From Caldifarciminota bacterium (GTDB taxonomy: Bacteria; Hydrothermota; Hydrothermia; B15-G9), in assembly GCA_027037615.1 (NCBI GenBank), contig JALVZN010000074.1:1-32604 (forward strand): a DNA stretch of 32,604 nt, read 5' to 3'. Each line of letters begins with the position of its first letter. Position 1 is the stretch's first letter. The notes below the pieces were generated by a model. The model searched no databases. It worked only from the letters and a program-made list of their open reading frames with translations, and was not told where the DNA came from. Of this stretch, positions 12,618 to 30,199 are shown in pieces. The translations under genes and the position numbers were made by a program.

Positions 12618-15600
12618 TCACCGTGAGATAATAACCTTGGTGTTCGCCTTTCCGAACGGCGTCGATACCATGATGAAATACACGCCGCTCCGAAGTTCAG
12701 CTCTCAGGTTCACATCGTGATAGCCAGCCTCTAAGTTCCTCGTTGTCTGCCAGATGCGCCTTCCGGCGATGTCATAGATTGCGAATTTCGCATCACATGT
12801 TGACGGAATGGCCAGCTTCAGACCGATGACGCTGCCCCTGACAGGGTTCTGCGCCACTCCAAGCAGCTCAAACTCGGACGGAATTTGACCTCGCGCCTCC
12901 TCGATCAGCGTTGCAGTGAAGCCCACTGTGTCGCTCGTTGTAACATTCGCAGGTTCAGCGTTGTCCGCAGCCCTCACGAAATAGCTCACAGTGTAGTTTG
13001 CGGAGTCGCCAAGCGCAGGGATTTCGCCGCTCCACACTCCACCGCTCAGGCTCATAGCAACCGAATCGAACGGCGAACCATCAACCGACCAGAACAGCCA
13101 TGCCGAACCGACACCGCTCAGGTTATCCGAAATCCACGCATCAACATCGAACGGCCCGAAGAACCAACTCGTGTCGCTCAAAACGGTCATGGAATCAACC
13201 GACGGCGGCGTTATATCCACACCGAACGAATCGATCGGCGACCATTCGGATGCGTTCCCGGCCTCGTCGAACGCCATGACATGCCACTCGTATCGCCCTT
13301 CGCTCAGCTCGACCGCCATCGCATTCGTGTCAACCGTGTCAATGAGCACCGTTGAGCCACCTGAAAGTATCTCAACGACATAGTAAACCGGTGTCGGTTT
13401 GGCCCCTAACTCGAACTCCCTCCCGACAGAGAGGACACCTGCTCCGCTTCCATGCGAGATGCCCGGCTTCCTGCCGAGAGCCGAGACGGCCATCCTGCCG
13501 TAGAATTTGCCTTTGTTGTTCAGGGTTACCGAGCTCCACTGAAGCTGGAGAGCCGTGTCGCTCAGCCAGATTCCGCCTACGGGCGCGACCAACGCCGGCA
13601 CAGAAGGCGCATGCGCGTCAACAACAAACATGCCTGCCTCACTGAAATCACCTTCAAGTCCGTCGGATGTAACCGCTTTCACTCTCCACCAATAAACCGT
13701 GTCTGCAAGCGGTTGTTCGAGCGTGTAACTCGTATCGCTTATGTTGCTGATTTCGATTAGGTTCGAGGTGAATGCAGAATCCAAAGCTATCTGGAGCACG
13801 AATGTGCCGTCGAATCCGCTATCGATCGACCACACGAATGTCGGCATGGAGTCGGTTACAAACACGGAGTTAATCGGTGAAATCAGCTCAGGCGCAGGCG
13901 GCCTCAATCCGAAGCTGACGGGAACCTCCACCATCGGATTTGCACTGTCGTTGCTCTCAATCTCAAGCGTCGCAAGGTGATAGCCGAAGCTCAGACCCGC
14001 AGAACTCATCGCAATCTCCACCATCGTCGAGTCATTTTCGGGGACGGTGTCGCAGGCAATCGAGATATAGAGCCATCCGGTATCGGGTTTCGCACCGTCC
14101 AGAAGAGCATCAAGATGCGACTTCTCACTGTAATCCACAGCGATGTTGAAGATCAGGTCAGCGCTTCCGGTGTTCTGCACGATGAGCGTCTCGGAAACGG
14201 TAACAGCGGAATCCACAACAACATCAAACTGTTCAGGCAAAGCGACAATCTCAGGCGTGTTCACGAAAACGCGGGTCATCGCCGAATTGTTCGACTCGTC
14301 GGACTCAGGGATGGAGTCGTTCGGGTCGGCATAGACCATAAGTCTCGCTGTGCCAGTGAAATCGTCGGGTATAATCCAGTCAAACTGCGCCTCAGCGCTA
14401 TCGCCGGCCTCAACAACGGGCAGGACAACGCCGTCGATGAGGCTCGTGTCGCCATCCACGAGATACAGGCGGACAAAGGCGGCCAGAGCATTGGCCAGAC
14501 CGTTGTTTCTGACCCATGCGGTTATTGTGATCGTGTCGCCGCTATGCGGATGGTCGTCGGAAACCTCAATTTCATCAGGACTTATCGTAAGATCAGGGCG
14601 ACCATGCACGAAAATTGAAGCGGAAAGCCTGTTGTTGAACTCGTTGCGTTCCATGACCGAATCGTCGATGTCAACGACTACAAAGACCTCATGCTGACCC
14701 GGCGTCGGACTCCACGGGATGGAGACGGTATCTTCGGAAAATGCTGACATCGAATCCAGCACAACGCTGTCAATCAGCTCGCCGCCGAGCATCGGATCGC
14801 CGTCGTAGAAAGCCATTGTGAATGCTCCAGCGGAAACACCACCATCGTTCGCCACAACTGCAATAAGTCCCACCGTATCGAAGCCAGTGGTGTCAAAATC
14901 GATCTCGTTCACCATGAGGTCAGGCAGAACTTTAAGCCTTGCAAATGCCATGTTGTTGCTCTCATCCGGTTCAAGCTGCTCATCGTCAGGGTCGATAACC
15001 ACGAAAATCCGATGTTCGCCGTAGGTGGCCGCAAGTCTGGTCTCAGCTTCGAGATAACCGTCAGGCGCTATGCTACCAAGCCTCACAGTATCCAGCAGAA
15101 CCGATGCGGAATCGTTAGGGTTACCCTCATAAAACGCCACAAGCACCGAATCGGACGCAACAGGCCCGATATTGTGCACCGCAACCGTAACGATAACCGT
15201 ATCGCCCACAAGCGGATTTGGATTGTCAAACGAGATGTCGGCAGAATCCACAGCCAGATCCGCGACCGCATAGCAGTCGATGGATGCGATGTTGTTCGAC
15301 TCGCTCAGCTCATTCTCGACATCCTCAGGGTCAACAACGACATAAATTCGGTTGATCCCTTCCTGAACGACCCACTGAACCGTCAGCGTTTCAGCGCTGT
15401 CAGGGCCGAGCGCTATCCTGAACTCAGGCTCGATCAACATGCCACCGGAGTCGGGATGCCCGTAAGTAAACCGCACGGTTACCGTGTCCGAAGCCACATC
15501 ACCGCCGTTCCACACCACCGCGCCGACCGTTACGGTATCGCCGGGCGATGCAAATCTCTCCGAAACTGTCATGCTCGAACTGGAGACAACGAGGTCAGGC

Positions 15601-18600
15601 AGGATCGGATGTGCACCCATGTTCAAATCGCCCAGCGACATGTCGGATTTGATACCCTTGCCAGCGAAGAACAACCCGTCGGCGAAATACATGCCGTCCT
15701 CAGCCATGCTCGGCTGTGAGCCGCTCCAGTTCCATTTCGACCAGATGTAAAGCGCATTGTTGTTGGCATCGATGGCCATCGTCGCAAGCCAATCCGTGAG
15801 CGAATCGTCGGTCAACGCTCTCGGCTGTATCCATCCGCTTCCACTGCGCAGGTCTTTCATCGTGTAGAACAGATCGCCGTCGTAGCCCTGATAGCCGCGC
15901 CAGAACACCATCACAATGCCCTGATTCGTAACCTGCACGATCGGTTGATATGCGAACTGCGGCGTCTCGTAAATCAGCTCAGGCGTGCTCCAATCGCCTG
16001 TCGTGTCCATCATCGAGAAGTAAAGCCTGTCGATGGTGCTGTCCTTCGCCGTCCACACCACAATCGCGCGACCGAGCGAATCGAAGACCACCGATGCGTT
16101 CTGCTCGGCCTCCTGTGCGGTCGAGGTCAGCATCTCAGCCGAACTCCACGAATGGCCGTCCCAGATGGCATATTTGAGGTCGGTGTCGAATGTCGTTGTA
16201 AAATCGCCGTCGCCATCGTAGAGCCACACCGCAATCGCAGTCCCATCAGGCGAATATGCGACTTTGACCATGCAATCGGCACCGTTATCGACATCGGTGC
16301 CCGGAATCGGCGCTGGCTCACTCCAATGAGTGCCGTCCCAGTAGGTGTAATAGACCGCCCAGCTCCGCCTATCCGAAATGGAATCGCTCAAAATCTTGTT
16401 CCATGCGACGAGCACCTGTCCCTGAGGGCCGACCGCGACGGATGCAAGCCCATCGGGCAGGCTGTCGCTGATGAGCGGCTGGACATCGCTCCACTCGCCC
16501 GTCGTGTGATTCCAAACCGAATAGTAGATGTCCTGAGTTCTGAAGATTGCATTGAGGTCTTTGACATAGCCCGGTGCGGTGTTGGCGCTCCACACAGCTA
16601 TCGCATCGCCGTTTGGCATGAACGCAACCACAGGGTCAAGTTCAAACCTGTCGTTTGAACCGCTCTCGATGGGCTGCGCAGTGCCCCACGATGTGCCATC
16701 CCACACGGCGTAATAGACATCCGGATCCGCACGGCCCGGCGTCGGGTCGTTGTCGTGTATCCAGACGACCATGGCATGTCCGCTGTCGTCGGTCGCCATG
16801 TATGGGTTTGGCAGGATGTCGGGCAGGTTGAGTGAATCAAGCCGTGCAAGGAGAATTGGCATCCTCTCAGCAAGTATCCGTTCGCCCTCGGTTCCGAAAG
16901 CCCACGGCCCAAGCGTATCCTGATAAAGCGTTCCTGAAATCCAGCCCCATCCGAGCGAACCTACGAGTTCAAACGGGACCACAAATGCGCCTGATAGGTG
17001 GAAACCCGGCGGCGGATAGAGCAATCTGGACTCAATGTCGGCGGTAGGATGTGCGACCATGGCGACACTTGCCACTCCGAATGCAACCTCGACTTTCGCC
17101 GATAGGTCAACGAGTATCTCCACTGCAGGGTCGATGAAGAGGCTATCGAATGTGAAGGATGAGTTTATGAACGCACCAACATCGTCTATCCTTGGCCTGA
17201 CTTCACCGCCAAAATCGACTCCTACTGTTACAGGGATACCGTGAACCAGAACATTCAGATCCTGATGGACTTCTGGCAGGACGAACGGGTCGAACTCGAA
17301 CGGCTGGTTCATGTGGAACTCTATCTGATCAAACTCAAGCGACCACGGGTCAAGATAGCCTGTAACAACGACATAGTGCTCTCTGCCAAGCTCTTCGAGT
17401 ATCTCATAGATGTTGCCGCTGAATATCTCGTTGCCCAAAATCACGATATCGCCGCCGAAATCCGGGTTGAACGGGATCGGGTCGCCGCCTCGCTCAAGCG
17501 GAACGCTGGCATTCAGTAACGCACCGGCCGCAATCCTCGTCTCAAGTCTGCCCAAAAGAAGGACATCGGACGGAATGAAATAATCGCCGTTTAAATCTAT
17601 AGGGAAATACTGCTCGCCGGTCCTGTAAACGCCTGCATCGTAATCGAAATAGAAATCACAGCCGAAATCCTGCATGTAAACCTGAAGCCAGTGCGGCATC
17701 GGAGCCGTGTTCACGGTGTAAGTAACGGGTTCGGAGGGCGTTCCGCTGAGGTCATAGGCAACGACTTTGAGCGGCACGACATGCGGAAGCTGCCCAACAT
17801 CGTATTCCACGCTCCAGCCGTCCGACGGGTCGTCATCGACAAGTGTATCGTCCTCAAAGATGAACATCACTCTCGCAACATCGTTCGCACTGTCAGGGTC
17901 CGTTACCTGAGCGGTAAATCGGTTGATAAGCTCGACGCCTGAGATGTAGCGGCCGAAGATGTCCTCGTCCGGATCGCCATCGTATTCTGCGACGACAGCC
18001 TGAACTATCGGTCCGCGCTCACGGAATGTCTCCGAGATGATGTTGTTCTCCTCGTTCGTCTCAGGGATGATGTTGTCAGGGTCAACCGAGACATAGAGCG
18101 TGTAAGACGGAAACTGAGGCGTCCAGAATGTCGAGACCGTCGTCGATTGGCCGGGATCGAGTTCATCGATGACGCTGTCGGCGATGGTGAGGAGCTCGCC
18201 TGTGCCTGCCGTGAGGTCCTCCACCATGAACCTGACGGGTATATTCCGCGCCGTATCGCCATGATTGGCGACAGTCGCCGTAATCAGAAGCCCATCGTTC
18301 TGATGCTCGACAACGAGGTCAGTGGGCGTGAGGTCGGAGGAGTATCTCACCTGACGATACAGCATCTGGATCTCCTCATCCGTCAGCGGACGGTTGTAAA
18401 CCCTGATCTCGTCAAGAAGACCGTTGAAAAGTTCGTCAATACTCCAACTGCTTAGAGCTATGTAGTTATTTGTACGCGTGATCGGGCGAGGAATGTTCGT
18501 GATGTCACTGGGCTCCCCATCAACATTGAAGGTGGGCATTCTCTCGCCGTTTATAAAGATGTCAACATGAAGGAACCCATCGTCCCCCGGCGTTCCCCTT

Positions 18601-20303
18601 GCCACTACATGCATAAGCTGGTTTCTCACTATGCCATTGAAAACTTCTACTTTCTGTGTGTGTGAATTTAGAGGGCTTCCCGGACGGTAAACCTCAAAAC
18701 ACAGGTTATTTGTTTCCTTATGCTGAGCAAACAGTATGTTATCATTTGCAGCTCCGTTGCCCAGCTCGATGATTCTTCCCCAATATCTTGGTTCCTCGAA
18801 AATCACCCATGCGCTTACGGTTATGCCATGGCTGAAATCTTCAGGGAATTCATTCAATTCTATGTAGTCGTGTTCTCCGTCGAAATGGAAGGCGTTTCCG
18901 ACAGCACCGGGAACACAGGTCGGATTGCCATGAACAATCCCATCGTGTCCATTACCCGAATTATCCGCAGCCGTGCAGTCGTCAAAAGACCAGTAAGCCA
19001 CAAGTCCGGTCTGAAGAGGCTCGATTATGGTAACATTCCATAGTGAAAATGTGGAATCCCCCCTTGAATCAAAAGCAATCAATTTGACCACTTTAGTCCC
19101 GGTTCCGTGGAAATAAATCTCCAGAGTTATAGTGTCCTCGTCCCCGTGTAATTGCTGTGTCTGAATAAGTGAATCGTCGAGGAACCATTTTGCATAGCTT
19201 AATCCATTACTGCTCAACAAAATTGCAGAAAATCGTTGCTGCTGATTTTCTAACACTGTCAATTCATGAGATTTAGGTTCCAGAACGGCAATATAAGGTT
19301 CCGAATAACACACAACCACTTCTGGATCGGGACGTGAGTATTTCCTGACAATTATGTCATCAAAAAGCCAATCGCCATTATAAGGATTCGCCCAATTGTC
19401 CTTTTTTACCCCCAATATCACAAAGTTAAATGAATCATTTTGTGGAAAATCTAAGCTAACGCTTCTAATGGTATCATTACGACTTATTAACTCGATGGAA
19501 TCACCCCATGAGGAAATTTTAAATGACTGCCATTCACTAATGTTTAAATTATGGTAAAGGACGGTTTCACCGTTTAACTGCGTTCCTTTGAATAAACCCA
19601 CAGCGTTATTCACTCCGTTTGAGCATCCGTATCTTGCTCCAAATTTAGCCGGGGTGTAAGGCTCCCACCATCTAACCCAACTTTCAGTTGATTTAGAGAT
19701 AATTACGCCGCCATCTGTCCCCCCTTTATATCTAATTTTGTAGATAAGCTGAAGCGGTTTTCCCGTGGATTCTCTGAATGAAGCGATCGCTTTGGTCACT
19801 CTTAAGTTGTCATAGCTTAATACTTCCAGCGCAAAACTTTGTCTGGTGGAGTCGTAAACAACATATCCACTTCCGTTTCCAGAAGATTCTATTCTCCATT
19901 TTGCAGTGTCCAATTGGCCAGATTCAAAATCTTCAAAGAACTCAAAGACGACATAACCGTTCGATTCGCTCTGCAAGTTTGGATCGCCATAGGTCAAATT
20001 TAGAATCTTTATTCCATTCGCTGGAATGTGTGGAACTTTCACCCAGATTAAGCTCGTGTCTCCCGGAACCCACCTTTCGATCCAATAGGGCAAAGTATCC
20101 CCGTTCTCCGGATCGATTATCCTTACGTCTCTTCCATCGCTTGTAGCCTGTGAATAATCGAAACTATCGGGAAGTATAGTTATCAACACCTGATAATCTA
20201 ATAAATCGTCGGTGTTGGAGAGATTATTTATGACAACCATGTTGCTACCAGCCCATAAGTTCGAGATACCCACAAATATCAGGACTTTTATTAAATTTTT
20301 CAT
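12618..20303 (-). CDS. Giant secreted multidomain protein (DUF2341, LamG, CARDB repeats, propeller, sorting tail)
   Basis: This 2561-residue exported protein carries a signal peptide (1-18). Domains in order: DUF2341 at ~30-110 (DGRDVRIIDPENGD, IWVKVPHIP); a LamG-type lectin-like domain at ~432-650 (GLVAYWSFDDCTA); a CARDB domain at ~653-760; and a unique region at ~865-1160. A propeller-like stretch with repeated VVW and WDGTSW motifs spans ~1164-1560. Four CARDB repeats lie at ~1568-2010, each ending in an ESNN-type motif. Then come a Hydin/ASPM-like Ig domain at ~2020-2110, fibronectin-like domains at ~2125-2475, and a Por/type-IX-like sorting tail at ~2480-2561 (AIYDIAGRRIWQT, LRSGVYFIMVST). 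It lies 15 bases behind the zinc-ribbon gene and shares its sigma-54 promoter. It is probably a surface adhesin or binding protein; the ligand is unknown. By eye, residues 1 to ~625 are clearly more AT-rich than the rest. Confidence 0.93.
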   Translation of the reverse strand: MKNLIKVLIFVGISNLWAGSNMVVINNLSNTDDLLDYQVLITILPDSFDYSQATSDGRDVRIIDPENGDTLPYWIERWVPGDTSLIWVKVPHIPANGIKILNLTYGDPNLQSESNGYVVFEFFEDFESGQLDTAKWRIESSGNGSGYVVYDSTRQSFALEVLSYDNLRVTKAIASFRESTGKPLQLIYKIRYKGGTDGGVIISKSTESWVRWWEPYTPAKFGARYGCSNGVNNAVGLFKGTQLNGETVLYHNLNISEWQSFKISSWGDSIELISRNDTIRSVSLDFPQNDSFNFVILGVKKDNWANPYNGDWLFDDIIVRKYSRPDPEVVVCYSEPYIAVLEPKSHELTVLENQQQRFSAILLSSNGLSYAKWFLDDSLIQTQQLHGDEDTITLEIYFHGTGTKVVKLIAFDSRGDSTFSLWNVTIIEPLQTGLVAYWSFDDCTAADNSGNGHDGIVHGNPTCVPGAVGNAFHFDGEHDYIELNEFPEDFSHGITVSAWVIFEEPRYWGRIIELGNGAANDNILFAQHKETNNLCFEVYRPGSPLNSHTQKVEVFNGIVRNQLMHVVARGTPGDDGFLHVDIFINGERMPTFNVDGEPSDITNIPRPITRTNNYIALSSWSIDELFNGLLDEIRVYNRPLTDEEIQMLYRQVRYSSDLTPTDLVVEHQNDGLLITATVANHGDTARNIPVRFMVEDLTAGTGELLTIADSVIDELDPGQSTTVSTFWTPQFPSYTLYVSVDPDNIIPETNEENNIISETFRERGPIVQAVVAEYDGDPDEDIFGRYISGVELINRFTAQVTDPDSANDVARVMFIFEDDTLVDDDPSDGWSVEYDVGQLPHVVPLKVVAYDLSGTPSEPVTYTVNTAPMPHWLQVYMQDFGCDFYFDYDAGVYRTGEQYFPIDLNGDYFIPSDVLLLGRLETRIAAGALLNASVPLERGGDPIPFNPDFGGDIVILGNEIFSGNIYEILEELGREHYVVVTGYLDPWSLEFDQIEFHMNQPFEFDPFVLPEVHQDLNVLVHGIPVTVGVDFGGEVRPRIDDVGAFINSSFTFDSLFIDPAVEILVDLSAKVEVAFGVASVAMVAHPTADIESRLLYPPPGFHLSGAFVVPFELVGSLGWGWISGTLYQDTLGPWAFGTEGERILAERMPILLARLDSLNLPDILPNPYMATDDSGHAMVVWIHDNDPTPGRADPDVYYAVWDGTSWGTAQPIESGSNDRFELDPVVAFMPNGDAIAVWSANTAPGYVKDLNAIFRTQDIYYSVWNHTTGEWSDVQPLISDSLPDGLASVAVGPQGQVLVAWNKILSDSISDRRSWAVYYTYWDGTHWSEPAPIPGTDVDNGADCMVKVAYSPDGTAIAVWLYDGDGDFTTTFDTDLKYAIWDGHSWSSAEMLTSTAQEAEQNASVVFDSLGRAIVVWTAKDSTIDRLYFSMMDTTGDWSTPELIYETPQFAYQPIVQVTNQGIVMVFWRGYQGYDGDLFYTMKDLRSGSGWIQPRALTDDSLTDWLATMAIDANNNALYIWSKWNWSGSQPSMAEDGMYFADGLFFAGKGIKSDMSLGDLNMGAHPILPDLVVSSSSMTVSERFASPGDTVTVGAVVWNGGDVASDTVTVRFTYGHPDSGGMLIEPEFRIALGPDSAETLTVQWVVQEGINRIYVVVDPEDVENELSESNNIASIDCYAVADLAVDSADISFDNPNPLVGDTVIVTVAVHNIGPVASDSVLVAFYEGNPNDSASVLLDTVRLGSIAPDGYLEAETRLAATYGEHRIFVVIDPDDEQLEPDESNNMAFARLKVLPDLMVNEIDFDTTGFDTVGLIAVVANDGGVSAGAFTMAFYDGDPMLGGELIDSVVLDSMSAFSEDTVSIPWSPTPGQHEVFVVVDIDDSVMERNEFNNRLSASIFVHGRPDLTISPDEIEVSDDHPHSGDTITITAWVRNNGLANALAAFVRLYLVDGDTSLIDGVVLPVVEAGDSAEAQFDWIIPDDFTGTARLMVYADPNDSIPESDESNNSAMTRVFVNTPEIVALPEQFDVVVDSAVTVSETLIVQNTGSADLIFNIAVDYSEKSHLDALLDGAKPDTGWLYISIACDTVPENDSTMVEIAMSSAGLSFGYHLATLEIESNDSANPMVEVPVSFGLRPPAPELISPINSVFVTDSMPTFVWSIDSGFDGTFVLQIALDSAFTSNLIEISNISDTSYTLEQPLADTVYWWRVKAVTSDGLEGDFSEAGMFVVDAHAPSVPALVAPVGGIWLSDTALQLQWSSVTLNNKGKFYGRMAVSALGRKPGISHGSGAGVLSVGREFELGAKPTPVYYVVEILSGGSTVLIDTVDTNAMAVELSEGRYEWHVMAFDEAGNASEWSPIDSFGVDITPPSVDSMTVLSDTSWFFGPFDVDAWISDNLSGVGSAWLFWSVDGSPFDSVAMSLSGGVWSGEIPALGDSANYTVSYFVRAADNAEPANVTTSDTVGFTATLIEEARGQIPSEFELLGVAQNPVRGSVIGLKLAIPSTCDAKFAIYDIAGRRIWQTTRNLEAGYHDVNLRAELRSGVYFIMVSTPFGKANTKVIISR

Positions 20304-20318
20304 AAAATCATCACCTCC

Positions 20319-20786
20319 TCATTGATTTCCAAAGAGAAGATACCCAACGAGCGCAATTATTAACAGAACTCCAACAGCAGTGAGGATTTCTGTAAAATGG
20401 TATATGAAAATCCCCAACGCAATTATCCCCAGAACTACTTGAACAACAGCTGACCCTGATTCAGCAGCCATGCCAATAAGCAGAGCTATGAAAAAAGAAG
20501 CCGCTAAACCTTTCCAGAATTGGTCCCATGTGGATGTTGAAGTCGAATCTTTCGGATGTGATTCGTCGGAACTGCTGGAAGGAAGTTCTATGTCGTAATC
20601 AGGTTCGGGATAATAACTGCTCGGAGTGTAACTTTCACTGCCCGAATATGTTTCGGGTTCGGGATCATCAACCTGCACATAAATGTAACCTTTGCCGTGA
20701 CACTTAGGACACGGCCTCGGCCCTATGGAAGTCATAATATACCTCAACCCACCACATGTCGGACATTTCACCTTTTCATAAGCCAT
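20319..20786 (-). CDS. Zinc-ribbon (DnaJ-type CxxCxG) membrane protein
   Basis: A 155-residue protein. The N-terminus carries CPTCGG and CPKCHGKG (residues 9-34), the paired CxxCxG pattern of the DnaJ zinc centre. A Ser/Pro/Asp/Glu-rich linker (about 40-85) follows, then two or three membrane helices (~92-155: AASFFIALLIGMA, VVLGIIALGIFIYHF, VGVLLIIALVGYLLFG). ATG at 20786 is chosen because GGAGGTGA precedes it; an earlier in-frame ATG at 20804 overlaps that site. It is the first gene behind a sigma-54 promoter and lies directly before the giant secreted protein, so it may help fold, sense or export it (inference). Confidence 0.82.
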   Translation of the reverse strand: MAYEKVKCPTCGGLRYIMTSIGPRPCPKCHGKGYIYVQVDDPEPETYSGSESYTPSSYYPEPDYDIELPSSSSDESHPKDSTSTSTWDQFWKGLAASFFIALLIGMAAESGSAVVQVVLGIIALGIFIYHFTEILTAVGVLLIIALVGYLLFGNQ

Positions 20787-20885
20787 GATGTCACCTCCAT
20801 ACATTTTGTGTTTTTTCGATACTGAGCATCAACCGCTTGCGTTTCTTAAACTTATGTTCTCAAAACCTTCCGTAATAAAACCAGA

Positions 20886-20901
20886 GGCAACAATCGTGCC
20901 A
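20886..20901 (-). promoter_or_regulatory. Sigma-54 promoter P1 (zinc-ribbon and giant protein genes)
   Basis: TGGCACGATTGTTGCC on the minus strand matches the -24/-12 consensus (TGGCA, six bases, TTGC) exactly. Predicted start near 20875, giving a leader of about 89 bases with GGAGGTGA before the zinc-ribbon gene. Confidence 0.88.
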
Positions 20902-20943
20902 TAAGGGAATGGCGCAATTTCGGGGGTTTTAGAAGCCCCTCGA

Positions 20944-20958
20944 GTCTCATTTTGATAC
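20944..20958. promoter_or_regulatory. Putative activator site A1
   Basis: GTCTCA-TTT-TGATAC, one mismatch from the perfect palindrome GTCTCA-N3-TGAGAC, 42 bases upstream of sigma-54 promoter P1. Confidence 0.65.
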
Positions 20959-21011
20959 CTCAATGTCGGCGGTGTCCGTCGATGATGCTGTGATACAAAG
21001 CTTTACCCTAT

Positions 21012-21046
21012 GTCTCATTTTGATACTAAAAGTCTCACTTTGAGAC
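21012..21046. promoter_or_regulatory. Putative activator sites A2 and A3 (tandem)
   Basis: GTCTCA-TTT-TGATAC at 21012-21026 and the perfect palindrome GTCTCA-CTT-TGAGAC at 21032-21046, exactly 20 bases apart (about two helical turns), so both face the same side of the DNA. Confidence 0.7.
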
Positions 21047-21133
21047 CAAGAAGGGGGTTTCATAACCGTAAAACCATCGATAAAACCCAGCTTATTGACA
21101 GATGCGATGGATACCTCCATTTTAGAGACCAAA

Positions 21134-21180
21134 TTCACCAAAATTGATACTAATTCGGTGAGTTTATTCACCAAAATTGA
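21134..21180. repeat. Pair of 14-bp direct repeats before the AAA ATPase gene
   Basis: TTCACCAAAATTGA occurs at 21134-21147 and 21167-21180, 33 bases apart. The second copy also forms a small inverted repeat GGTGA/TCACC (21157-21161 and 21168-21172). It lies directly before the ribosome site of the ATPase gene and could be an operator. Confidence 0.5.
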
Positions 21181-21202
21181 CATCTTTCAGGGAGGACTTG
21201 AG

Positions 21203-22357
21203 ATGATCGTCGAAAGGACAATTTTGAAACGCATTGAGCAATACCTATTTAAGGGCAAAATAATCGCCATCTACGGGGCAAGGCAGGTCGGAAAGACAAC
21301 CCTTGTGAAAGAACTTATCAAAAAATTCCCCGACAACTCCATTTACCTGAATTGTGATGAACCGGATGTCAGGGTGCTCCTGAGCAACAAAACATCCACT
21401 GAATTGAGGCACATTGTTGGAGATAAAAGACTTGTGGTCATAGACGAGGCTCAAAGGGTGAGGGACATCGGGATCACCTTAAAATTGATGGTGGACAATT
21501 TCCCCGAAAAGCAGATAGTCGTAACAGGATCATCATCTTTCGAGCTAACGGGGAAAATAGCTGAACCTCTGACGGGAAGAAAAATCGATTTCATCCTTTT
21601 CCCTTTCTCTCTTGAGGAAATTTCTCAAATCTATTCCCTTTTAGAGATCAAACGGCTTCTCCCGTCGTTTCTGGTTTATGGGATGTATCCCGAAGTTGTT
21701 CTGAAACCTGAGCTTGCCCGTGAAATTTTGAGATCGATCGCTTACAGCTATGCCTTCAAAGACATCTTCCAGCTCTATCAGCTCAGGAATCCGGAGGTTT
21801 TAGAGAAACTCCTTCAGGCACTTGCGCTTCAGCTCGGCGCCGAAGTCTCCTACAACGAGCTTTCAAGTCTGGTAGGAGTTGATAAGAACACTGTTGCAAA
21901 TTACATCCGCATCCTCGAACGGGCGTTTATCACCTTCAAACTCCCTCCGTTCAGTCGGAACCTCCGAAACGAATTGAAAAAGCTGAGAAAAGTTTTCTTT
22001 TTCGATGTCGGCGTGAGGAATGCATATATAAACAACTTCAATCCGATAGACCTCAGGGACGATGTCGGTAAGCTGTGGGAGAACTTCGTGATACTGGAGC
22101 GAATGAAACTGCTGTTAAATCACGGCATTCATGCCAGTTTCTACTTCTGGAGGAGAAACCGGAAGGAGATCGACCTGATTGAGGAGAGAGAAGGCAAGCT
22201 CTACGCATACGAAATCAAATGGAGAAAAAGGAAAGCAAGGCTCCCCGTAGCCTTTCAGGAGGCCTATCCCAACTCACAGTTCTCCGTGATCACACGGGAA
22301 AACTTCCTTGAGTTTTTGCTGCCCGATGGGTTTAACAAAATCACAGAAAGCACCTGA
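21203..22357 (+). CDS. AAA_14 / DUF4143 family ATPase
   Basis: A 384-residue cytoplasmic ATPase. Walker A GARQVGKT lies near residues 23-30 and Walker B LVVIDEAQR near 77-85; VTGSSSFEL (near 106-114) is the sensor-1 region. The C-terminal half is DUF4143, with a helix-turn-helix-like VGVDKNTVANYIRILERAF and a nuclease-like core (WENFVILERM, FYFWRRNRKEIDLI, YAYEIKW). Such genes are widespread, often horizontally moved, and their function is poorly known. The start at 21203 follows GGAGG; the open frame extends to 21095 but into the regulatory repeats. It is a single gene, convergent with the next, and has no sigma-54 promoter of its own. Confidence 0.9.
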   Translation: MIVERTILKRIEQYLFKGKIIAIYGARQVGKTTLVKELIKKFPDNSIYLNCDEPDVRVLLSNKTSTELRHIVGDKRLVVIDEAQRVRDIGITLKLMVDNFPEKQIVVTGSSSFELTGKIAEPLTGRKIDFILFPFSLEEISQIYSLLEIKRLLPSFLVYGMYPEVVLKPELAREILRSIAYSYAFKDIFQLYQLRNPEVLEKLLQALALQLGAEVSYNELSSLVGVDKNTVANYIRILERAFITFKLPPFSRNLRNELKKLRKVFFFDVGVRNAYINNFNPIDLRDDVGKLWENFVILERMKLLLNHGIHASFYFWRRNRKEIDLIEEREGKLYAYEIKWRKRKARLPVAFQEAYPNSQFSVITRENFLEFLLPDGFNKITEST

Positions 22358-22413
22358 TAAGACGGTGTAGTTAGGGACGCAGGAATGACTGTTCAGGTCG
22401 TCCTCTGGCATTT

Positions 22414-22452
22414 GGTGGGTTTAGGGCGAGCGAGGGATATTGCTCCCCCACC
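22414..22452. other. Weak inverted repeat in the convergent gap
   Basis: GGTGGG (22414-22419) and CCCACC (22447-22452) could pair across a 27-base loop between the convergent ATPase and propeller genes. No T-run follows on either strand, so a terminator role is only possible. Confidence 0.2.
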
Positions 22453-22474
22453 CGCCGAGATGACTTAAACATCA

Positions 22475-24508
22475 CTAAAATTTAACGAATTTACCGGATA
22501 TCTTTCGCTTAGAAGTCGTTATGAGGTAGAGGTATTTGCCTGACGGGAGGACGGATATGTCCGCATCGTATTTGAGCACACCGTCACGATTTATGGAAAT
22601 CTCTTTGACCAACCGCCCAGCGACATCGTATATCGCCAGTTTCTCGACCCTTTCGTTCGGCAGGTTAAACCTGATCCTCAGCTTTTTGCCCGTGTAGTAA
22701 ACGAGGAGATTTTTGGAGAAAGGCTTCGTTTTTTGCTCAGTCTCCTTAATCCCCGGAGTCGGAAGCACATAACCAACATATGGTACTTCGTATATTCCCG
22801 GTGTGTTGGTTATAAAAGTCATGTTGCCAGATGTATCCATAGCTACTAAATTCTTATCTCCGTGCCATAGTTCATGACCTACAAAAATAACATCGTTTAA
22901 GCCAGGAACAACGGCTATTGTTGTAATTCCCTCAGTATCAGCAAGGGCTGTTATTTGATGCACATTATTGCCTTCTAAATCCATCCAATACGCATCCATC
23001 GGCGAATAGTAGCTGTAATGGTTACGAGCGAAATATATCCTCTGGGTGTCGCCGGATATTACAGGTGTCCAATCAATTACATTGTTGTTTGTTAATTGCT
23101 GGATGGTTGAGACATCCACGGTTCCATCGCGGTAGATCGCTTTGTAGATCTCATAGGTGGGTGACCAACATCCGTCTTGGGTATTGAACAACACGACCGA
23201 ATCATTCACAAAAGTCATCGCTTTAGTGTAAGTCGCTTCACCATCTCCATAAGCAGCTGGGTCAAGGACAAGATGGTTATCGGAACCGTCCATTTTTACG
23301 GCATAAAACTTCCTGATACAGCTATGCCATGGCTCAATATAGATTATATTTCCATCCGGATGCCAATATTCTGCCTGCCTTACCCCTCCATTATATGAAT
23401 TTGGCGTTGGAACCTCGAATTCTATTCCAAGATTCATGTCCAGAATCCACAGATGTCGATTTTCCTCAGGTGAAGACTTAGGCGCTTTTGAATAAGCAAA
23501 ATACCTTCCATCTGGAGATAACACACCAGCAAATTCATCCATATTGGGATCTGTCAAGAAGGGGATCAATGTATCATTGTCAACATCATAAACATACACA
23601 TCCACTGACTGATTGTTTTCGACATCCGCATAAAGAATAAATACTCCCCTTCTCGGCAGCTCGATCGGTTGGATCCTTGCTTCGCCGTTCAGGAAGTTGC
23701 GCAGGACGGTATAAGCCACCGGGCCGAGGTATCCCTCATTTTCCGACATCAATGCCACATCCGCCCACGGAAACGGGAGAACATATCCGTTGCCAACGAG
23801 ATACAGATAGATTTCAGCAGTGTAGATATTCCTCTCACCGTCACAAACGCCGGGATAGTTCACACATTGATCGCCCTGCCCCTGATAAGGCCATCCGTAA
23901 GTTGTTTTTAGCTCAACATATCTGACAGTATCGTAAGGCGCAACAACAGGCTCGAAGTTCACTCTCTGGGTAACGACAGGATGGTTGACCACGGTTATCA
24001 GACTTGGCCCGGGCTCCTTACGGTGCTGATAGCTGCTGTCGGGCTGCCATTCAGCGATGTGCCTGAAGATGGGATGCGGGTCAAGGGTGCTAACCAGATA
24101 CTTCGCCTCATAAGATGAAGGGGTGTAAGACCCAACAGTCGCATCCAAAAGCCCCATGTATTCGCCCACAAACAATCCATAATAGGAGATCATCAAATTG
24201 CCGCCCTGCTCCAGAAAATCCTGTAACGCATTGAGAACTGTCGAGTTGTTGAACTGTATAGGCTCTCTGTCCGTGTGAATCCATATCACATCGATATTAT
24301 CGAGGCTGTAACCCGAAATTATGTCGTTGACATCAAGCACGATAGCGGTATCTGTCGGCGGGTCATTGAGGATATGGCTTATGAAGAAGTAGGCAGCGTT
24401 TTCCTCCTCAGTCATGTTTGTTTTGTCAGGCACAAGCAAGGCGCCCTGATAGGCGCTTAACTGCGCTACCGCCATTATTATGAGACTCACAATTGCCAAC
24501 CTTCTCAT
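22475..24508 (-). CDS. Secreted protein: GATase-like domain, TolB-like propeller, sorting tail
   Basis: A 677-residue exported protein with signal peptide MRRLAIVSLIIMAVAQLSA. Residues ~22-285 resemble a class I glutamine amidotransferase-like/ThuA-type flavodoxin fold (GALLVPDKT, DVIWIHTD, LQDFLEQGGNLMISYYG) without an evident catalytic Cys. Residues ~290-590 are TolB/WD40-like blades (GVLSPDGRYFAYSK, AEYWHPDGNIIYIE). The tail (~600-677) is a Por/type-IX-like sorting domain (LAIYDVAGRLVKEI, LPSGKYLYLITTS). GGAGGGTG lies before the ATG; sigma-54 promoter P2 gives a 121-base leader. The propeller part is visibly more AT-rich than the two ends. Probably a surface or secreted protein; substrate unknown. 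Confidence 0.88.
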   Translation of the reverse strand: MRRLAIVSLIIMAVAQLSAYQGALLVPDKTNMTEEENAAYFFISHILNDPPTDTAIVLDVNDIISGYSLDNIDVIWIHTDREPIQFNNSTVLNALQDFLEQGGNLMISYYGLFVGEYMGLLDATVGSYTPSSYEAKYLVSTLDPHPIFRHIAEWQPDSSYQHRKEPGPSLITVVNHPVVTQRVNFEPVVAPYDTVRYVELKTTYGWPYQGQGDQCVNYPGVCDGERNIYTAEIYLYLVGNGYVLPFPWADVALMSENEGYLGPVAYTVLRNFLNGEARIQPIELPRRGVFILYADVENNQSVDVYVYDVDNDTLIPFLTDPNMDEFAGVLSPDGRYFAYSKAPKSSPEENRHLWILDMNLGIEFEVPTPNSYNGGVRQAEYWHPDGNIIYIEPWHSCIRKFYAVKMDGSDNHLVLDPAAYGDGEATYTKAMTFVNDSVVLFNTQDGCWSPTYEIYKAIYRDGTVDVSTIQQLTNNNVIDWTPVISGDTQRIYFARNHYSYYSPMDAYWMDLEGNNVHQITALADTEGITTIAVVPGLNDVIFVGHELWHGDKNLVAMDTSGNMTFITNTPGIYEVPYVGYVLPTPGIKETEQKTKPFSKNLLVYYTGKKLRIRFNLPNERVEKLAIYDVAGRLVKEISINRDGVLKYDADISVLPSGKYLYLITTSKRKISGKFVKF

Positions 24509-24639
24509 GACACCCTCCTATGTTTTTGATAAGCCTCTGTTTTCGAGTCATCAAAATTCGACCAGAGCCTCCAAACTCATCTTTAAACATGCACGGTTCT
24601 TAAACTTATGTTCTTAAAACTCACCGTAATAAAACCAAA

Positions 24640-24655
24640 GGCAATAATCGTGCCA
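24640..24655 (-). promoter_or_regulatory. Sigma-54 promoter P2 (677-residue propeller gene)
   Basis: TGGCACGATTATTGCC on the minus strand, one base different from P1 and a full -24/-12 match. Predicted start near 24629. Confidence 0.88.
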
Positions 24656-24696
24656 GATAAAAACGACGGTATTTCGGGGTATTTTTGGGGCGATTC

Positions 24697-24711
24697 GTCT
24701 CATTTTGAGAC
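24697..24711. promoter_or_regulatory. Putative activator site B1
   Basis: Perfect palindrome GTCTCA-TTT-TGAGAC, 41 bases upstream of P2. Confidence 0.7.
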
Positions 24712-24765
24712 CGAAGTGTTAGGTTACTATGAGATATTTATCTGACGCACAATCACTTAAGCCGT

Positions 24766-24800
24766 ATCTCATTTTGAGACCGAAAGTCTCACTTTGAGAC
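24766..24800. promoter_or_regulatory. Putative activator sites B2 and B3 (tandem)
   Basis: ATCTCA-TTT-TGAGAC at 24766-24780 and GTCTCA-CTT-TGAGAC at 24786-24800, 20 bases apart. B3 ends 41 bases before P3, the same gap as B1 to P2, so the block serves both divergent promoters. Confidence 0.7.
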
Positions 24801-24841
24801 CGAAATCGGAAGCAAAGTCGTTGAACCTCAGGATAACATAG

Positions 24842-24857
24842 TGGCATAAAAGTTGCC
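24842..24857 (+). promoter_or_regulatory. Sigma-54 promoter P3 (lipoprotein-kinase-activator operon)
   Basis: TGGCATAAAAGTTGCC keeps TGGCA, six bases, TTGC. The predicted start near 24868 is only about three bases before the ATG at 24871, and there is no ribosome-binding site, so the message is leaderless or nearly so. Confidence 0.82.
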
Positions 24858-24870
24858 CTAAAATTTAAAT

Positions 24871-26313
24871 ATGAAGGTGAAAAATTTAATCCTTTTGATA
24901 GCGATAAGCCTTTTCGTAGGGTGCAAAAACAGGCAAGGGAAGGAGGGAGCTGTTCGGATATCGCCCTCCATCGAGGAGCGCGTGTTGCTGAACGATGTTT
25001 TTGTCTCAGAAGCGACAATAGTCCAGGATCTGGATGGAAACCTGTATCTCCTCCTCAAAAAGATCAACTCCATCGAGTGCTACCGGATAGTAACCGAAAG
25101 GGACAGCATCAATCTCAAATTCCTGTGGAAACACGAGGGGCTTTCCGTAATCCCGCTTATCAACTATCAATCGCCCGATGCGAGAACCAATTACATCGTG
25201 GCTCTGCCATCCGCAAATCCTGTAAAAAGGATGAGGGATGGGGACACCACATTTAAAGTCAGAGTCTATTCCCTCAAACTGGAGACAGGCGAAATCGTTG
25301 ACAGTGCATTTTACATTTCAACAAGCGGAGCTATGCCCATAAAAGACTTGTGGTTACAAAGAAATTGGCTGCTCATCCCTGACAGGAATGTACACATAGA
25401 CATCCGGCTGCCATCTAAATATGTGATATTTCAGATCGATAAAAACGGGAGATTTAAAAAGCGGCTCGATGTGCCATTCGGAGGACAAATTGTTTCCGTT
25501 GCAATTGTAGGCGACAAATACGCGCTTGTAAGCACTGCACTTCTTGGGAACCTCGTTCGGACAAAAATCTCAGGTGTGTCCGATTGGTTTACAGGCGTAT
25601 TTTTGATTTCTCTGGACGATGGGAAAATCCTTGACCATTTAGTGGTGCATTCCGGAACTTACGGTGATTCTCGCATATACCCCACATCTTCGGATTCCGA
25701 ATGGGTGATCTACGACAGGTGTTATTTCTGCGAGCGATGCGGTGCCACAATTTATAAGGTCAGAATTGCCCCTCTCAGAATTGTTAACTCCATCTCTTTC
25801 GACGAAGGTGTGTCCGTTGGACGGCCTTTCAGGTTCAAAGGCAAACTCTTATATCCCTCGTTCCTGATAAATTCAAAGAAACTTCTCTTGCTGGACGAAA
25901 ACCTGAAGATATTCAGGGAGATCCCCCGCCCTAAATACGAATATGACTCCGTGTATGTTATGCATTACACATCGCTTAAGAGCAGGAGAGGCACGGATGT
26001 TTCTGTCAACGCCGTTCAAATAACTGGCAATGAATATCCGGCCATTGTTGTGGAATTTGACAAGAAAGGGCAAATTGTGAGAGATCCATCACATGCTGGA
26101 GGCCGGGATGTTGAGGGAAAACTCCAGAATGTGCCCGAAGTGTTTGTTTATCTTCCACCCTACGATAGGCTAAACGGGCGGGCTGTTCTGGACAAAAAGG
26201 GAGCATTCCCGGCTAATGTTCCCGGAATCAAAGACAGGCTGGTTGTCTTCTCTCCCATGCAATATAACAAGCTGGTGCTGCGTGAGTTAAAGATTTTCGA
26301 TAAAAGCAGATGA
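24871..26313 (+). CDS. Lipoprotein with propeller-like repeats, first gene of the sensor operon
   Basis: A 480-residue lipoprotein: the signal peptide ends in a lipobox LFVGC with Cys18 as the lipidated residue. The mature protein is rich in beta strands with recurring aromatic/Asp motifs (VQDLDGNLYLLLKK, VFLISLDDGKILDHL, LLLLDENLKIFREI) that look like propeller blades. A Cys cluster YFCERCG lies near residue 290 and could bind metal or form disulfides. It is 16 bases upstream of the histidine kinase, whose extracytoplasmic part is also propeller-like, so it may present the signal to the kinase (inference). No named family is recognised. Confidence 0.85.
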   Translation: MKVKNLILLIAISLFVGCKNRQGKEGAVRISPSIEERVLLNDVFVSEATIVQDLDGNLYLLLKKINSIECYRIVTERDSINLKFLWKHEGLSVIPLINYQSPDARTNYIVALPSANPVKRMRDGDTTFKVRVYSLKLETGEIVDSAFYISTSGAMPIKDLWLQRNWLLIPDRNVHIDIRLPSKYVIFQIDKNGRFKKRLDVPFGGQIVSVAIVGDKYALVSTALLGNLVRTKISGVSDWFTGVFLISLDDGKILDHLVVHSGTYGDSRIYPTSSDSEWVIYDRCYFCERCGATIYKVRIAPLRIVNSISFDEGVSVGRPFRFKGKLLYPSFLINSKKLLLLDENLKIFREIPRPKYEYDSVYVMHYTSLKSRRGTDVSVNAVQITGNEYPAIVVEFDKKGQIVRDPSHAGGRDVEGKLQNVPEVFVYLPPYDRLNGRAVLDKKGAFPANVPGIKDRLVVFSPMQYNKLVLRELKIFDKSR

Positions 26314-26329
26314 ACTAAGGGAGGGCAAA

Positions 26330-28693
26330 ATGGTGTGGATTTTGACATTGACCCTGTTATCGTGGACGCCCTTCGGCGTCAAGATGTTCAATTTGAGTGA
26401 CCCGCCAATCGGCGTATTCAGGACCGAAAATCACATGTATGTCGTCTCGCACAACGGCACAGTTTACAAAATATCTTTCAAACCAGACATAACTGATTTT
26501 GCGGAAATTTCGGACTCTTTCAAACTGCCGCTCACGAAAATCGTTCCCGGACGGAGGGGTAAAAGCGGCAATTTTAAGGTCCACAACATCGTTTACTGGC
26601 GCAAACGGCTCGTGGTTCTGACCGATTACGGCGTCTATGTCTCGGACACAGGTGAGGATTTCCGAAAATGGAAACCGATAACCATGGGCCGCGCGGTGGA
26701 GATAGCGGGGGATTCGGAAAACCTGTTCATTTTGTTTCCTCAAAAAGTGGTCAGGGTCATCGAGCGAAACGGGGAACACTCGATCGAGAATGTCGCGAAA
26801 GTCAACCTAACGGAACCCTGTTTCTCAAGCTTCATCGATGGCACTCTGTTTTTTGAATCATCTGACACGCTGTGCATTGTGAGCGGGGATTCCCTGAAAA
26901 GGTTTGCTTTACCGGAACCGAAGGGGAATGTAGTTAAGTATAATGTGCTCGTAGAATTCATTGTGAGAAAGCATTATCCCGACATCTTCGGAAATGGCAA
27001 GTTTGTTGCAAGGGATAGCTCGTCGGGTTACACGGTGGCTTATATCGGAAGTTATGAGGAGAAGGGGCGTGAAAATCCCAGAGCTTTCAGCCATTATCTG
27101 GTTCTGGATAGCAGCTTCAACGCAGTCGATACCTTTTCCATTCCCGACTTTGAGCATACGGATGTCATTTTCAATGAAGGGTATTTCTGGATAATGGGCA
27201 TAAAATCCATCTTTGGAGGGGCACTTTACGGACTTCGAGGAAATCCACCTGTCCTAAAAGACTCGTTTTCTACAAAACTCATGTCATTAACAGGTATTCC
27301 TTCAGATAAAGGAATCAATTTTGCTACCTATGTGCCAAGTTTTGTGGCCATTTTCCAAAACGAAGCACCTGAACATTTGTATTCATCGTTCATTGAGTTT
27401 CCTGAGATATTCTGGTTCAGCAAGAAACTGCCGTTTCTACACGATGGGCCATCGGATTTTGTCATGTTCAGCAGCTCGTTCAACCCCACTCTCACTTTTG
27501 ACGAGCGCAACAACGGTATTGTCCTCCTCGTGCCACGAATCGATGAGGCGCTCGGTTACGCCGCATCGCTTGTCAGCTGGGCGAAAAGGCATCAGCACAT
27601 CTGGAGCGCGGGGAAGGCGCTCGATAGCCTCGATGCCGCTATGGAAATCTACCGCGTCCTGAAACCCGATACGCTCGCACACCTTTTCAAGCTCAGAGAG
27701 AGCCTTTACCGACAGGTCAAACTCATAAAGTTCGTCAAAACCAACTGGCTCAAGAGCCTGCTTGCGGTCATCTGGGTGCTGACAGTCCTGATGTTCCTGA
27801 GGGCAAAACGGACTTTCCGCAAATTCAGGTATCAATACGCGCCGCTGCCATCTGAGGAGACGATCAAAGGCGTTATGAGGATCCCGATCTTTCACAAGTT
27901 CCCATCGCTCTGGCAGCCGATTGTTGAAAATCATGGCTTTGACTGCGATGTCCTGAAGGATGAAAACCTTTACAAAAACCTCCAGGAGTCGCTCCGCATG
28001 CTTGTGGCAATGGAAAAGGATTTCCGCAATGTGCATCCGCGCTGGGAATCGCTTTTCAAACGGACAAAATGGAATTTGCTCCTGCTCTCAAACATCTTCA
28101 GCCTGCATCGGCTCTGCAGATTGGGCGGCATCTTCAAAAATCTACTGAAGCGTTCGACTGTCAGCCTTCTCAGGCACATCGCAAATGTGAGGAATGAACT
28201 CAAGAGCATGCTTGAGAAGGAGAGAGCCGACATCATTCAGGGCGCTCTGCTCCCGGTTGTGGAGGACATAAGAAAAAACTATGCGGCTCAAGGTGTTATC
28301 GTGAATACGGAGATCACTCAGCAGGCATCTTACGCTTTCTATCCGTCGGAACTCGCGAAATTTCAGTGTTGCTTCAAGGCCATCCTCGAAAACGCCATAG
28401 AATCCTATACCGATGGCAATACGATAAAGAAGATAGACATCAAAGTCAGAGCACTGCCGGATGTGCTGGAAATATCGATCAGAGATTACGGAAAAGGACT
28501 GCCTCCGCAGATGATCTCAAAGATATTTGAACCGGGATTCTCCTACGGCAAACAGGGCAAAGAGCGTGGTTACGGATTGGCCGGATGCGATGAACTCTTC
28601 AGGAAACACGGCGAAATCGAGGTGAAATCGGAGCCCAACAAAGGCACATCGTTTAACATAAAGATCTATTTTCTGCCGAAAAGGAGGCGATAA
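26330..28693 (+). CDS. Membrane histidine kinase with extracytoplasmic propeller-like sensor
   Basis: A 787-residue chain. The N-terminal hydrophobic segment (1-16) leads into a large extracytoplasmic beta-rich region (~20-440; motifs such as NHMYVVSHNGTVYKI and KRLVVLTDYGVYVSD). A short helical stalk (~445-470) and one membrane helix (~474-492, LLAVIWVLTVLMFL) follow. The cytoplasmic HATPase_c domain is complete: N box LENAIESY with Asn688, G1 DYGKGLP (Asp719), F box FEPGFS and G2 GYGLAG. The phospho-acceptor region is not a standard HisKA: the best candidate is His616 in LLRHIANVRNEL. GGAGGG precedes the ATG. Its partner is the activator gene 3 bases downstream. Confidence 0.9.
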   Translation: MVWILTLTLLSWTPFGVKMFNLSDPPIGVFRTENHMYVVSHNGTVYKISFKPDITDFAEISDSFKLPLTKIVPGRRGKSGNFKVHNIVYWRKRLVVLTDYGVYVSDTGEDFRKWKPITMGRAVEIAGDSENLFILFPQKVVRVIERNGEHSIENVAKVNLTEPCFSSFIDGTLFFESSDTLCIVSGDSLKRFALPEPKGNVVKYNVLVEFIVRKHYPDIFGNGKFVARDSSSGYTVAYIGSYEEKGRENPRAFSHYLVLDSSFNAVDTFSIPDFEHTDVIFNEGYFWIMGIKSIFGGALYGLRGNPPVLKDSFSTKLMSLTGIPSDKGINFATYVPSFVAIFQNEAPEHLYSSFIEFPEIFWFSKKLPFLHDGPSDFVMFSSSFNPTLTFDERNNGIVLLVPRIDEALGYAASLVSWAKRHQHIWSAGKALDSLDAAMEIYRVLKPDTLAHLFKLRESLYRQVKLIKFVKTNWLKSLLAVIWVLTVLMFLRAKRTFRKFRYQYAPLPSEETIKGVMRIPIFHKFPSLWQPIVENHGFDCDVLKDENLYKNLQESLRMLVAMEKDFRNVHPRWESLFKRTKWNLLLLSNIFSLHRLCRLGGIFKNLLKRSTVSLLRHIANVRNELKSMLEKERADIIQGALLPVVEDIRKNYAAQGVIVNTEITQQASYAFYPSELAKFQCCFKAILENAIESYTDGNTIKKIDIKVRALPDVLEISIRDYGKGLPPQMISKIFEPGFSYGKQGKERGYGLAGCDELFRKHGEIEVKSEPNKGTSFNIKIYFLPKRRR

Positions 28694-28696
28694 GAC

Positions 28697-30061
28697 ATGT
28701 TCCTCGTGCTCGACGACGAGAATTATGTTGAAAAGGTGTTGAAGAGCGCTTTTCCGAACAGGGAGATCGTGCACACCCGCACATCCAGACAGTTTATAGA
28801 AAAGTTGAAGAGTTTTAAGGACATACGGGCTGCCGTTGTCGATCAATACATCGAACACGGGAGCTATCCGGAATCCGAATTCCTGTCGGATTCGCCGGAA
28901 TATGAAGGCTTCTCCGTCGCCGTAGAGGCCAGAAAATTGCGACCCGATGTCCCTGTTTTCCTTTTGACCAGATTTGCCGAAAGCTCAATCTTCATGAGAG
29001 CATATCAATACGGGATAATCCCGATAGAATTCGTTGACGAAAAGTTGACCGCCAGAATTCTGAGGGAAAGGATATTGAGGACCGACCCTGAGATAACGAG
29101 GGAGCTTGTCAAAGAATATCGAAAATTGGGCTGGGTGGCCGAATCGCCTAAATCCAGAGAGCTGATCTGGGAGATAGAGCACAATTACAAGGATTCCGAT
29201 GAACCGCTTCTGATCACAGGCGAGATCGGGGTCGGCAAGACCCTGCTGGCGAAGATCATCCATAAGCGCTCAAAGAGGGCCAACAGCCCGGTAATGACTT
29301 TTGTGATAAGCGCATACCCCAGAGAAAACCTGTATTACATGCTGTTTGGTGCCGCTCCGCGCGCTTTCACAGGCGTGAAAGGTGGCCCGGGATTGGTCGA
29401 AACGGTGGGAGAAGGCACGCTCATCCTTGACGAGATCGGCGACCTGCCCATCGAAGTCCAGCTCCACTTGCACACTCTCCTTGAGGAGAGAAGGTTCAGG
29501 AGGATGCAGGAGTCCAAAGATAGGATCTTCAAAGGCAGGATTATCGTCCTGACGCACAAAAACTTGAAAAATCTGGTCAAACAAAATCTTTTCAGGGAAG
29601 ACCTGCTGAGCCGAATAAGCGGCCTGCACATCCACATCCCGCCTTTAAGAGAACGGAGAGAGGACATAAGGCCGCTTCTGGAGTTCTATTGCGACGACAT
29701 GGAGTTCACCGACAGGGCTATGGAGCTGCTTGTGAACGAGTATCCATATCCTGCAAATGTGAGGAGCCTCAAGAAGATCTGCCAGTTTTTGAGGCACGAG
29801 AACAAAAACCGATTGGTCACGCTGGACATAGTGATCAAGGCAATCACCCACTATGAACAGGATGAACCCACGCATGAAAATGGCTTAAGCTTTGAGAGGA
29901 TACTGGATTGGATGCTGGAGAACGGTATAACACTGAAAGCATTGAGAGACAGCATCGTGAAGGCAGGCTACGAGAAATTGGGTAAAACATGGAACGAAGA
30001 ATGGGAGAAACTGGGCCTCACCAAAGCCACATTTTACAGGATGCTGAAATCGGATAAATGA
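28697..30061 (+). CDS. Sigma-54-dependent response regulator (NtrC type, AAA+ activator)
   Basis: A 454-residue activator. Residues 1-120 form a diverged receiver with acidic pair Asp6-Asp7, phospho-acceptor candidate Asp49 (VVDQY), Thr91 and possible Lys116. The AAA+ domain spans ~145-385: Walker A GEIGVGKT (175-182), sigma-54-contact loop RAFTGV (222-227) in place of GAFTGA, Walker B LILDE (242-246), and arginine-finger region LFREDLLSRI followed by PPLRERREDIRPLL. The C-terminus (~400-454) is a Fis-like helix-turn-helix ending LGLTKATFYRMLKS. AAGGAGG inside the end of the kinase gene initiates it, so the two are coupled. It is the natural candidate to bind the GTCTCA-N3-TGAGAC palindromes and drive P1-P3. 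Confidence 0.93.
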   Translation: MFLVLDDENYVEKVLKSAFPNREIVHTRTSRQFIEKLKSFKDIRAAVVDQYIEHGSYPESEFLSDSPEYEGFSVAVEARKLRPDVPVFLLTRFAESSIFMRAYQYGIIPIEFVDEKLTARILRERILRTDPEITRELVKEYRKLGWVAESPKSRELIWEIEHNYKDSDEPLLITGEIGVGKTLLAKIIHKRSKRANSPVMTFVISAYPRENLYYMLFGAAPRAFTGVKGGPGLVETVGEGTLILDEIGDLPIEVQLHLHTLLEERRFRRMQESKDRIFKGRIIVLTHKNLKNLVKQNLFREDLLSRISGLHIHIPPLRERREDIRPLLEFYCDDMEFTDRAMELLVNEYPYPANVRSLKKICQFLRHENKNRLVTLDIVIKAITHYEQDEPTHENGLSFERILDWMLENGITLKALRDSIVKAGYEKLGKTWNEEWEKLGLTKATFYRMLKSDK

Positions 30062-30183: not shown

Positions 30184-30199
30184 GGGCACGAAAATTGCC
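30184..30199 (+). promoter_or_regulatory. Sigma-54 promoter P4 (kelch and TPR genes)
   Basis: GGGCACGAAAATTGCC has the invariant GG and GC at correct spacing. Predicted start near 30210 leaves about six bases before the kelch ATG at 30216. The bases after the -12 (TTAAAAT) closely match those after P3 (CTAAAAT). Confidence 0.82.

Follow-up and report, generated by a model that had tools for sequence, protein, structure and literature searches.

A rare palindrome beside sigma-54 type promoters as the probable binding site of a clade-specific NtrC-type activator

The window analyzed here, which is the whole stretch of 32,604 nucleotides, contains six copies of the 15-bp palindrome GTCTCA-N3-TGAGAC, and these very probably serve as upstream activating sequences for the NtrC-type activator encoded at 28697-30061, which would bind them as dimers. 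A preliminary description of this DNA had proposed that the sites fit a dimeric activator of this type, most simply the product of 28697-30061, and the proposal gains support from the links of the sites to promoters, from their recurrence in the related genome G007 and from a clade-specific domain in the predicted protein. The main argument for pairing this activator with the palindrome is that a clade-specific DNA-binding domain matches a clade-specific site in two families. The pairing is also favored by the occurrence of the sites far above chance and at this locus only, and by the symmetric 41-nt gaps that separate them from promoters.

All six palindromes reported between positions 20944 and 24800 were recovered at their places, and re-reading the window sequence confirmed that three are perfect dyads and three deviate by one base. 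They are divided over two control regions and are given here as read on the plus strand. In the first region, site 1 (GTCTCATTTTGATAC, 20944..20958, one mismatch) is followed after 68 nt by a pair consisting of site 2 (GTCTCATTTTGATAC, 21012..21026) and site 3 (GTCTCACTTTGAGAC, 21032..21046, perfect), spaced 20 nt apart. The second region contains site 4 (GTCTCATTTTGAGAC, 24697..24711, perfect) and, 69 nt further on, a pair with the same 20-nt spacing formed by site 5 (ATCTCATTTTGAGAC, 24766..24780, one mismatch) and site 6 (GTCTCACTTTGAGAC, 24786..24800, perfect). The order described before, a single site, about 68 bases and a pair 20 bases apart, is thus borne out by the measured distances. 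The three central nucleotides are constrained rather than free, as all six sites read CA-[TC]TT-TGA.

Under a first-order Markov model allowing at most one mismatch, the number of matches to the palindrome expected by chance is 0.17 for the window and 0.0013 for the two control regions; the best further match in the window carries two mismatches. When the 2.06 Mb assembly was scanned with the same tolerance, only two isolated copies were detected besides the six, one of which (on contig C121) apparently lies in sequence common to the relatives G001 and G002, and no further promoter-linked copies were found in this assembly. For the refined word GTCTCANTTTGAKAC, again with at most one mismatch, the matches in the 2.06 Mb are the six and no more. 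The scans of this assembly and of G007 therefore show no dispersal of the kind expected for a genome-wide repeat unrelated to promoters, which the preliminary description had named as a finding that would speak against its proposal.

Screening for the pattern GG-N10-GC identified three sigma-54 type promoters near the sites, each carrying TGGCA-N6-TTGC; promoter scores of 21.5 or more occur by chance at 0.013 per kb. On the minus strand, TGGCACGATTGTTGCC (20886..20901) precedes the genes at 20319-20804 and 12618-20303, and TGGCACGATTATTGCC (24640..24655) precedes the gene at 22475-24508. On the plus strand, TGGCATAAAAGTTGCC (24842..24857) is located 13 nt ahead of the start codon (ATG) of the operon 24871-30061, and TGGCACACGACTTGCT occupies the equivalent position before the homologous first operon gene in the relative G002. 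The distance to the -24 element, put at about 41-42 bases in the preliminary description, is 42 nt (site 1) in the 20.9 kb region and 41 nt (site 4) in the 24.6 kb region, both measured to minus-strand promoters. Taking all three sites of a region together, the gaps to the promoter are 42, 110 and 130 nt in the first region, and in the second region 41, 110 and 130 nt leftward and 41, 61 and 130 nt rightward.

The 24.5-24.9 kb region is divergent, with a plus-strand promoter at 24842 that was absent from the preliminary description. The layout of this region is symmetric, with the single site proximal to the promoter of a cargo gene and the pair proximal to the regulator's own promoter; site 6 is located 41 nt from the plus-strand -24 element. 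Because the promoter of the kinase-activator operon lies 41 nt from the pair, autoregulation is implied. The helical phasing claimed earlier holds for the members of a pair, which are in phase (20 nt, ~1.9 turns), but not for the single site relative to the pair, which is half a turn out (68-69 nt, ~6.5 turns), an offset that is explained if the single site serves the minus-strand promoter and the pair the plus-strand promoter.

The two control regions also resemble each other at their minus-strand promoters, where 20840-20930 and 24594-24684 are 80% identical over 91 nt, from the promoter into the start of the 5' leader. This alignment would fit a recent duplication through which both regions merely share their sites without any function, but such an explanation is hardly credible: the sites are retained at 42 of 45 positions, whereas the 53-54 nt between the single site and the pair align no better than shuffled sequence, and the same word is present at a related operon in another family. 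The 91-nt block itself (TTTTATTACGG...GTTTTRAGAACATAAGTTTAAGAA) may be either a conserved leader or a duplication. In the first region, the position equivalent to the rightward promoter is ~21088, next to position 21094, where a DUF4143 ATPase unit has its left edge. In G002 and G003, conservation of the leader of this DUF4143/AAA_14 ATPase gene (21094-22357) starts at base 21094; in G005 it starts nearby. The gene occurs in different contexts in the relatives, and 21094-22357 has the appearance of a mobile unit that was inserted next to the first control region.

The operon 24871-30061 comprises, on the plus strand and in this order, a lipoprotein-like gene, a kinase gene and the activator gene. 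The first open reading frame (24871..26313) encodes a probable lipoprotein, which has a 66% identical homologue at the same place in G002 and no match in Pfam or NCBIfam. The second gene (26330..28693) encodes a membrane sensor kinase with HATPase_c at residues 682-779. The third (28697..30061) encodes the presumed binder of the sites, an NtrC-type sigma-54 activator according to PF00158, matches to NtrC-family PDB entries and an alignment of homologues. Its Sigma54_activat AAA+ domain is clearly present (PF00158, 131.9 bits with a cut-off of 20.2; E 2.4e-38). In the loop that contacts sigma-54, F224, T225 and G226 are invariant in all six homologues and the flanks vary; the loop of the window activator reads RAFTGV, not GAFTGA. 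The Response_reg match is weak in all six homologues (E 0.12 for the window protein, 1.1e-4 at best); the receiver residues D6, D7, D49 and T91 are invariant in the alignment, and the usual Lys before Pro109 is lacking in the 28697-30061 product and its homologues. Scores are below the cut-offs for both PrsR (TIGR02915; 154.1 vs 502.6 bits) and the NtrC nitrogen regulator (TIGR01818; 165.6 vs 558.6 bits).

To characterize the C-terminal domain, homologues with complete ends were compared with the three other clear NtrC-type activators of the genome, whose Fis domains are canonical. The window activator (GKTWNEE-WEKLGLTKATFYR) and five homologues share a C-terminal domain that is unlike those of the three other activators, and its motif LG[IL]xRATFYR aligns with canonical Fis-type members. 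Pfam HTH_8 was matched in one of the six homologues (2.9e-4), and the C-terminal domain of the window activator falls below HTH_8. As judged from these alignments, the predicted DNA-binding domain is a clade-specific Fis-like variant.

We found the palindrome again in G007, a genome of the same order but another family (WOR-3), whose activator is 37% identical. GTMTCA-N3-TGAKAC is present in five copies in the 2.4 Mb of G007 and in none in the reversed control. Four of the five copies form two tandem pairs with a 21-nt spacing, both on the 16.6 kb contig that carries the related kinase/activator operon; the probability of finding four of five on this contig by chance is ~1e-8, calculated by proportion (16.6 kb of 2.4 Mb). 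The fifth copy, an exact palindrome on C20, lies within coding sequence and was treated as chance. One pair occupies the divergent region ahead of the operon; its two sites are 53 and 74 nt upstream of TGGAATAAAAATTGCG, a minus-strand promoter, and 53 nt corresponds to 42 nt plus one helical turn. The second pair (L078 6733-6768) is located just downstream of the activator gene and is followed by the end of an LVIVD gene whose T9SS tail is weak; it has convergent genes on both sides and is ~1.2 kb from the nearest sigma-54 promoter. In both G007 and G009, GTCCCATTTTGGGAC and GTCTCAAAATGGGAC are present upstream of TGGCAGAAAAATTGCC, 68 nt apart, a spacing also seen in the window. Beyond TGGCAGAAAAATTGCC the G007 contig ends; in G009 the next gene is convergent, and the G009 pair is situated between convergent genes. 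A cytochrome c gene of G009 (L109 3225-3294) has a one-mismatch copy, GTCTCATTTTAAGAC, upstream of its sigma-54 promoter TGGCAGAAAAATTGCA, and this promoter adjoins a different, canonical activator.

Tandem palindromes are able to fold, and the first pair of G007 forms a near-perfect inverted repeat with 21 base pairs that folds at -29.5 kcal/mol (z -8.6). Together with the location of one G007 pair and of the 68-nt G009 pair between convergent genes, this would fit a role in RNA, as hairpins or terminators, or an origin as a mobile or extragenic repeat, in place of protein binding. We consider these readings very unlikely, since the gaps to the -24 elements are constant and the palindrome is not dispersed through the genome. 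Folding of the window pairs is modest (z -2.0 and -2.6), and transcripts from the window promoters would lack the sites, which lie upstream of them; for the window pairs, the hairpin reading was rejected after the folding test.

It is improbable, although less so, that the palindromes are operators of another regulator, either a repressor or a different activator, that happen to be near sigma-54 promoters. Adjacency alone is no proof of identity, the genome encodes the three other clear NtrC-type activators, the window contains a GntR gene, and the GTCTCATTTTAAGAC copy in G009 lies 39 nt upstream of a promoter beside a different activator. Nevertheless, clustering of the sites at operons of a single activator clade is seen in two families, and it is this clade that has its own variant of the DNA-binding domain.

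Other relatives were less informative. The G002 activator is 69% identical and its operon retains a perfect -24/-12 promoter; no palindrome was found near this promoter, which is abutted by the ATPase gene. G001, the closest relative, was rejected as a footprinting partner, as its contig ends inside the kinase gene and no control region is assembled; a DNA search of G001 with window positions 19800-26200 gave no match. A copy in G001, GTCTCAATTTGAAAC on C20, precedes an MscL-like gene, has no nearby sigma-54 promoter among those scanned and was set aside.

Two further sigma-54 type promoters of the window, at 30184-30199 before a kelch gene and at 32146-32161 before the gene at 32201, are conserved in G001 and have no palindrome; a weight-matrix scan detected no weak palindrome sites upstream of either. 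The palindrome therefore does not cover every sigma-54 promoter in the window, and these two may depend on another activator or on action from a distance. Among intergenic TGGCA-N6-TTGC sites elsewhere in the genome, a type IV pilin promoter (C51:29314; L013 near 1501) has its own 15-bp N3 dyad, TTTGCA-AGG-TGCAAA (TTTGCAAGGTGCAAA), which starts at a nearly equal position upstream of the -24 element (-58 vs -56). This dyad suggests one geometry with different half-sites for different activators. Counting against the assignment of the palindromes to the 28697-30061 activator are the G002 operon without a palindrome, the siteless 30184 and 32146 promoters, the two pairs between convergent genes in G007 and G009, the HTH_8 threshold that was not reached, the unassembled G001 region and the failure to find rpoN in the 95%-complete assembly of the window organism, a gene that was found in its congener G001.

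The presumed targets point to type IX secretion. With a cut-off of 23 bits for TIGR04183, the T9SS type A sorting domain, the minus-strand gene 22475..24508 encodes a secreted beta-propeller protein scoring 30.5 bits. The first gene behind the 20886 promoter (20319..20804, minus strand) was assigned to a zinc-ribbon membrane protein from its reading frame and profile searches, and is in an operon with 12618..20303 (minus strand), whose 2561-aa product carries the same sorting domain (33.1 bits). The kelch gene following the regulator operon also encodes a T9SS sorting tail (TIGR04183, 29.9 bits), and downstream of the G005 activator gene, the next long reading frame is that of sprA, a T9SS translocon gene. 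The targets of the activator are therefore likely to be type IX secretion cargo genes, as far as these profile matches indicate.

We propose that each 15-bp dyad would take one dimer of the Fis-like C-terminal domain. A signal received by the adjacent membrane kinase would pass by phosphorelay to the activator, which would then assemble on the sites, loop the DNA and spend ATP to open the sigma-54 RNA polymerase. Two divergent promoters would be fired in the 24.5-24.9 kb region: leftward that of the T9SS-cargo gene 22475-24508 from the single site, and rightward that of the activator's own operon from the pair, resulting in positive autoregulation. The 20.8-21.1 kb region would be a related copy driving 20319 and 12618. 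For an almost entirely uncultured phylum, this would provide a regulator-site pair whose specific word is accessible to a culture-free test by DAP-seq.

The type of switch is familiar; within NtrC-type enhancer control, the site and the activator branch appear to be new, as no match to them was found. Our literature search yielded no report of the GTCTCA-N3-TGAGAC palindrome, or of a GTCTCA motif with sigma-54 activators. Like NtrC-family enhancer-binding proteins of the NtrC, NifA and NorR type, the system combines an AAA+ sigma-54 domain with F-T-G loop residues, tandem dyad sites upstream of -24/-12 promoters and an activator gene adjoining a kinase gene; it differs in the half-site GTCTCA with its 3-nt center. 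The NorR site is GTCA-N3-TGAC, and the core TCA-N3-TGA is common to it and the window palindrome. Target operons of most activator groups in Clostridiales have several sites each, usually at 100-250 bp (PMC6615313), whereas the window sites are closer, at 41-42 nt from the -24 element. The motif yGTCA-N6-TGACr of the FlrA-like regulators and DVU2894 of Desulfovibrio vulgaris (PMC4641369) likewise serves a sigma-54 activator and repeats a GTCA half-site in inverted orientation, but its spacer is longer and the half-site differs.

The PrsK/PrsR system consists of a dedicated kinase and an NtrC-like activator for PEP-CTERM genes, with a conserved upstream motif and a -24/-12 promoter before the genes of C-terminally sorted proteins (PMC1569441). 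The window shares with it the kinase/activator pair and the motif plus -24/-12 promoter before genes with a C-terminal sorting signal; here, however, the signal is a T9SS tail (TIGR04183) and not PEP-CTERM, and the activator scores far short of the PrsR cut-off. If the T9SS link is true, dedicated sigma-54 control extends to a C-terminal sorting system other than PEP-CTERM. It is conceivable, and we advance it tentatively, that a WOR-3 branch controls T9SS cargo genes through a dedicated two-component system of the sigma-54 type, which has a Fis-like variant of its own and the site GTCTCA-N3-TGAGAC and is a T9SS counterpart of PrsK/PrsR.
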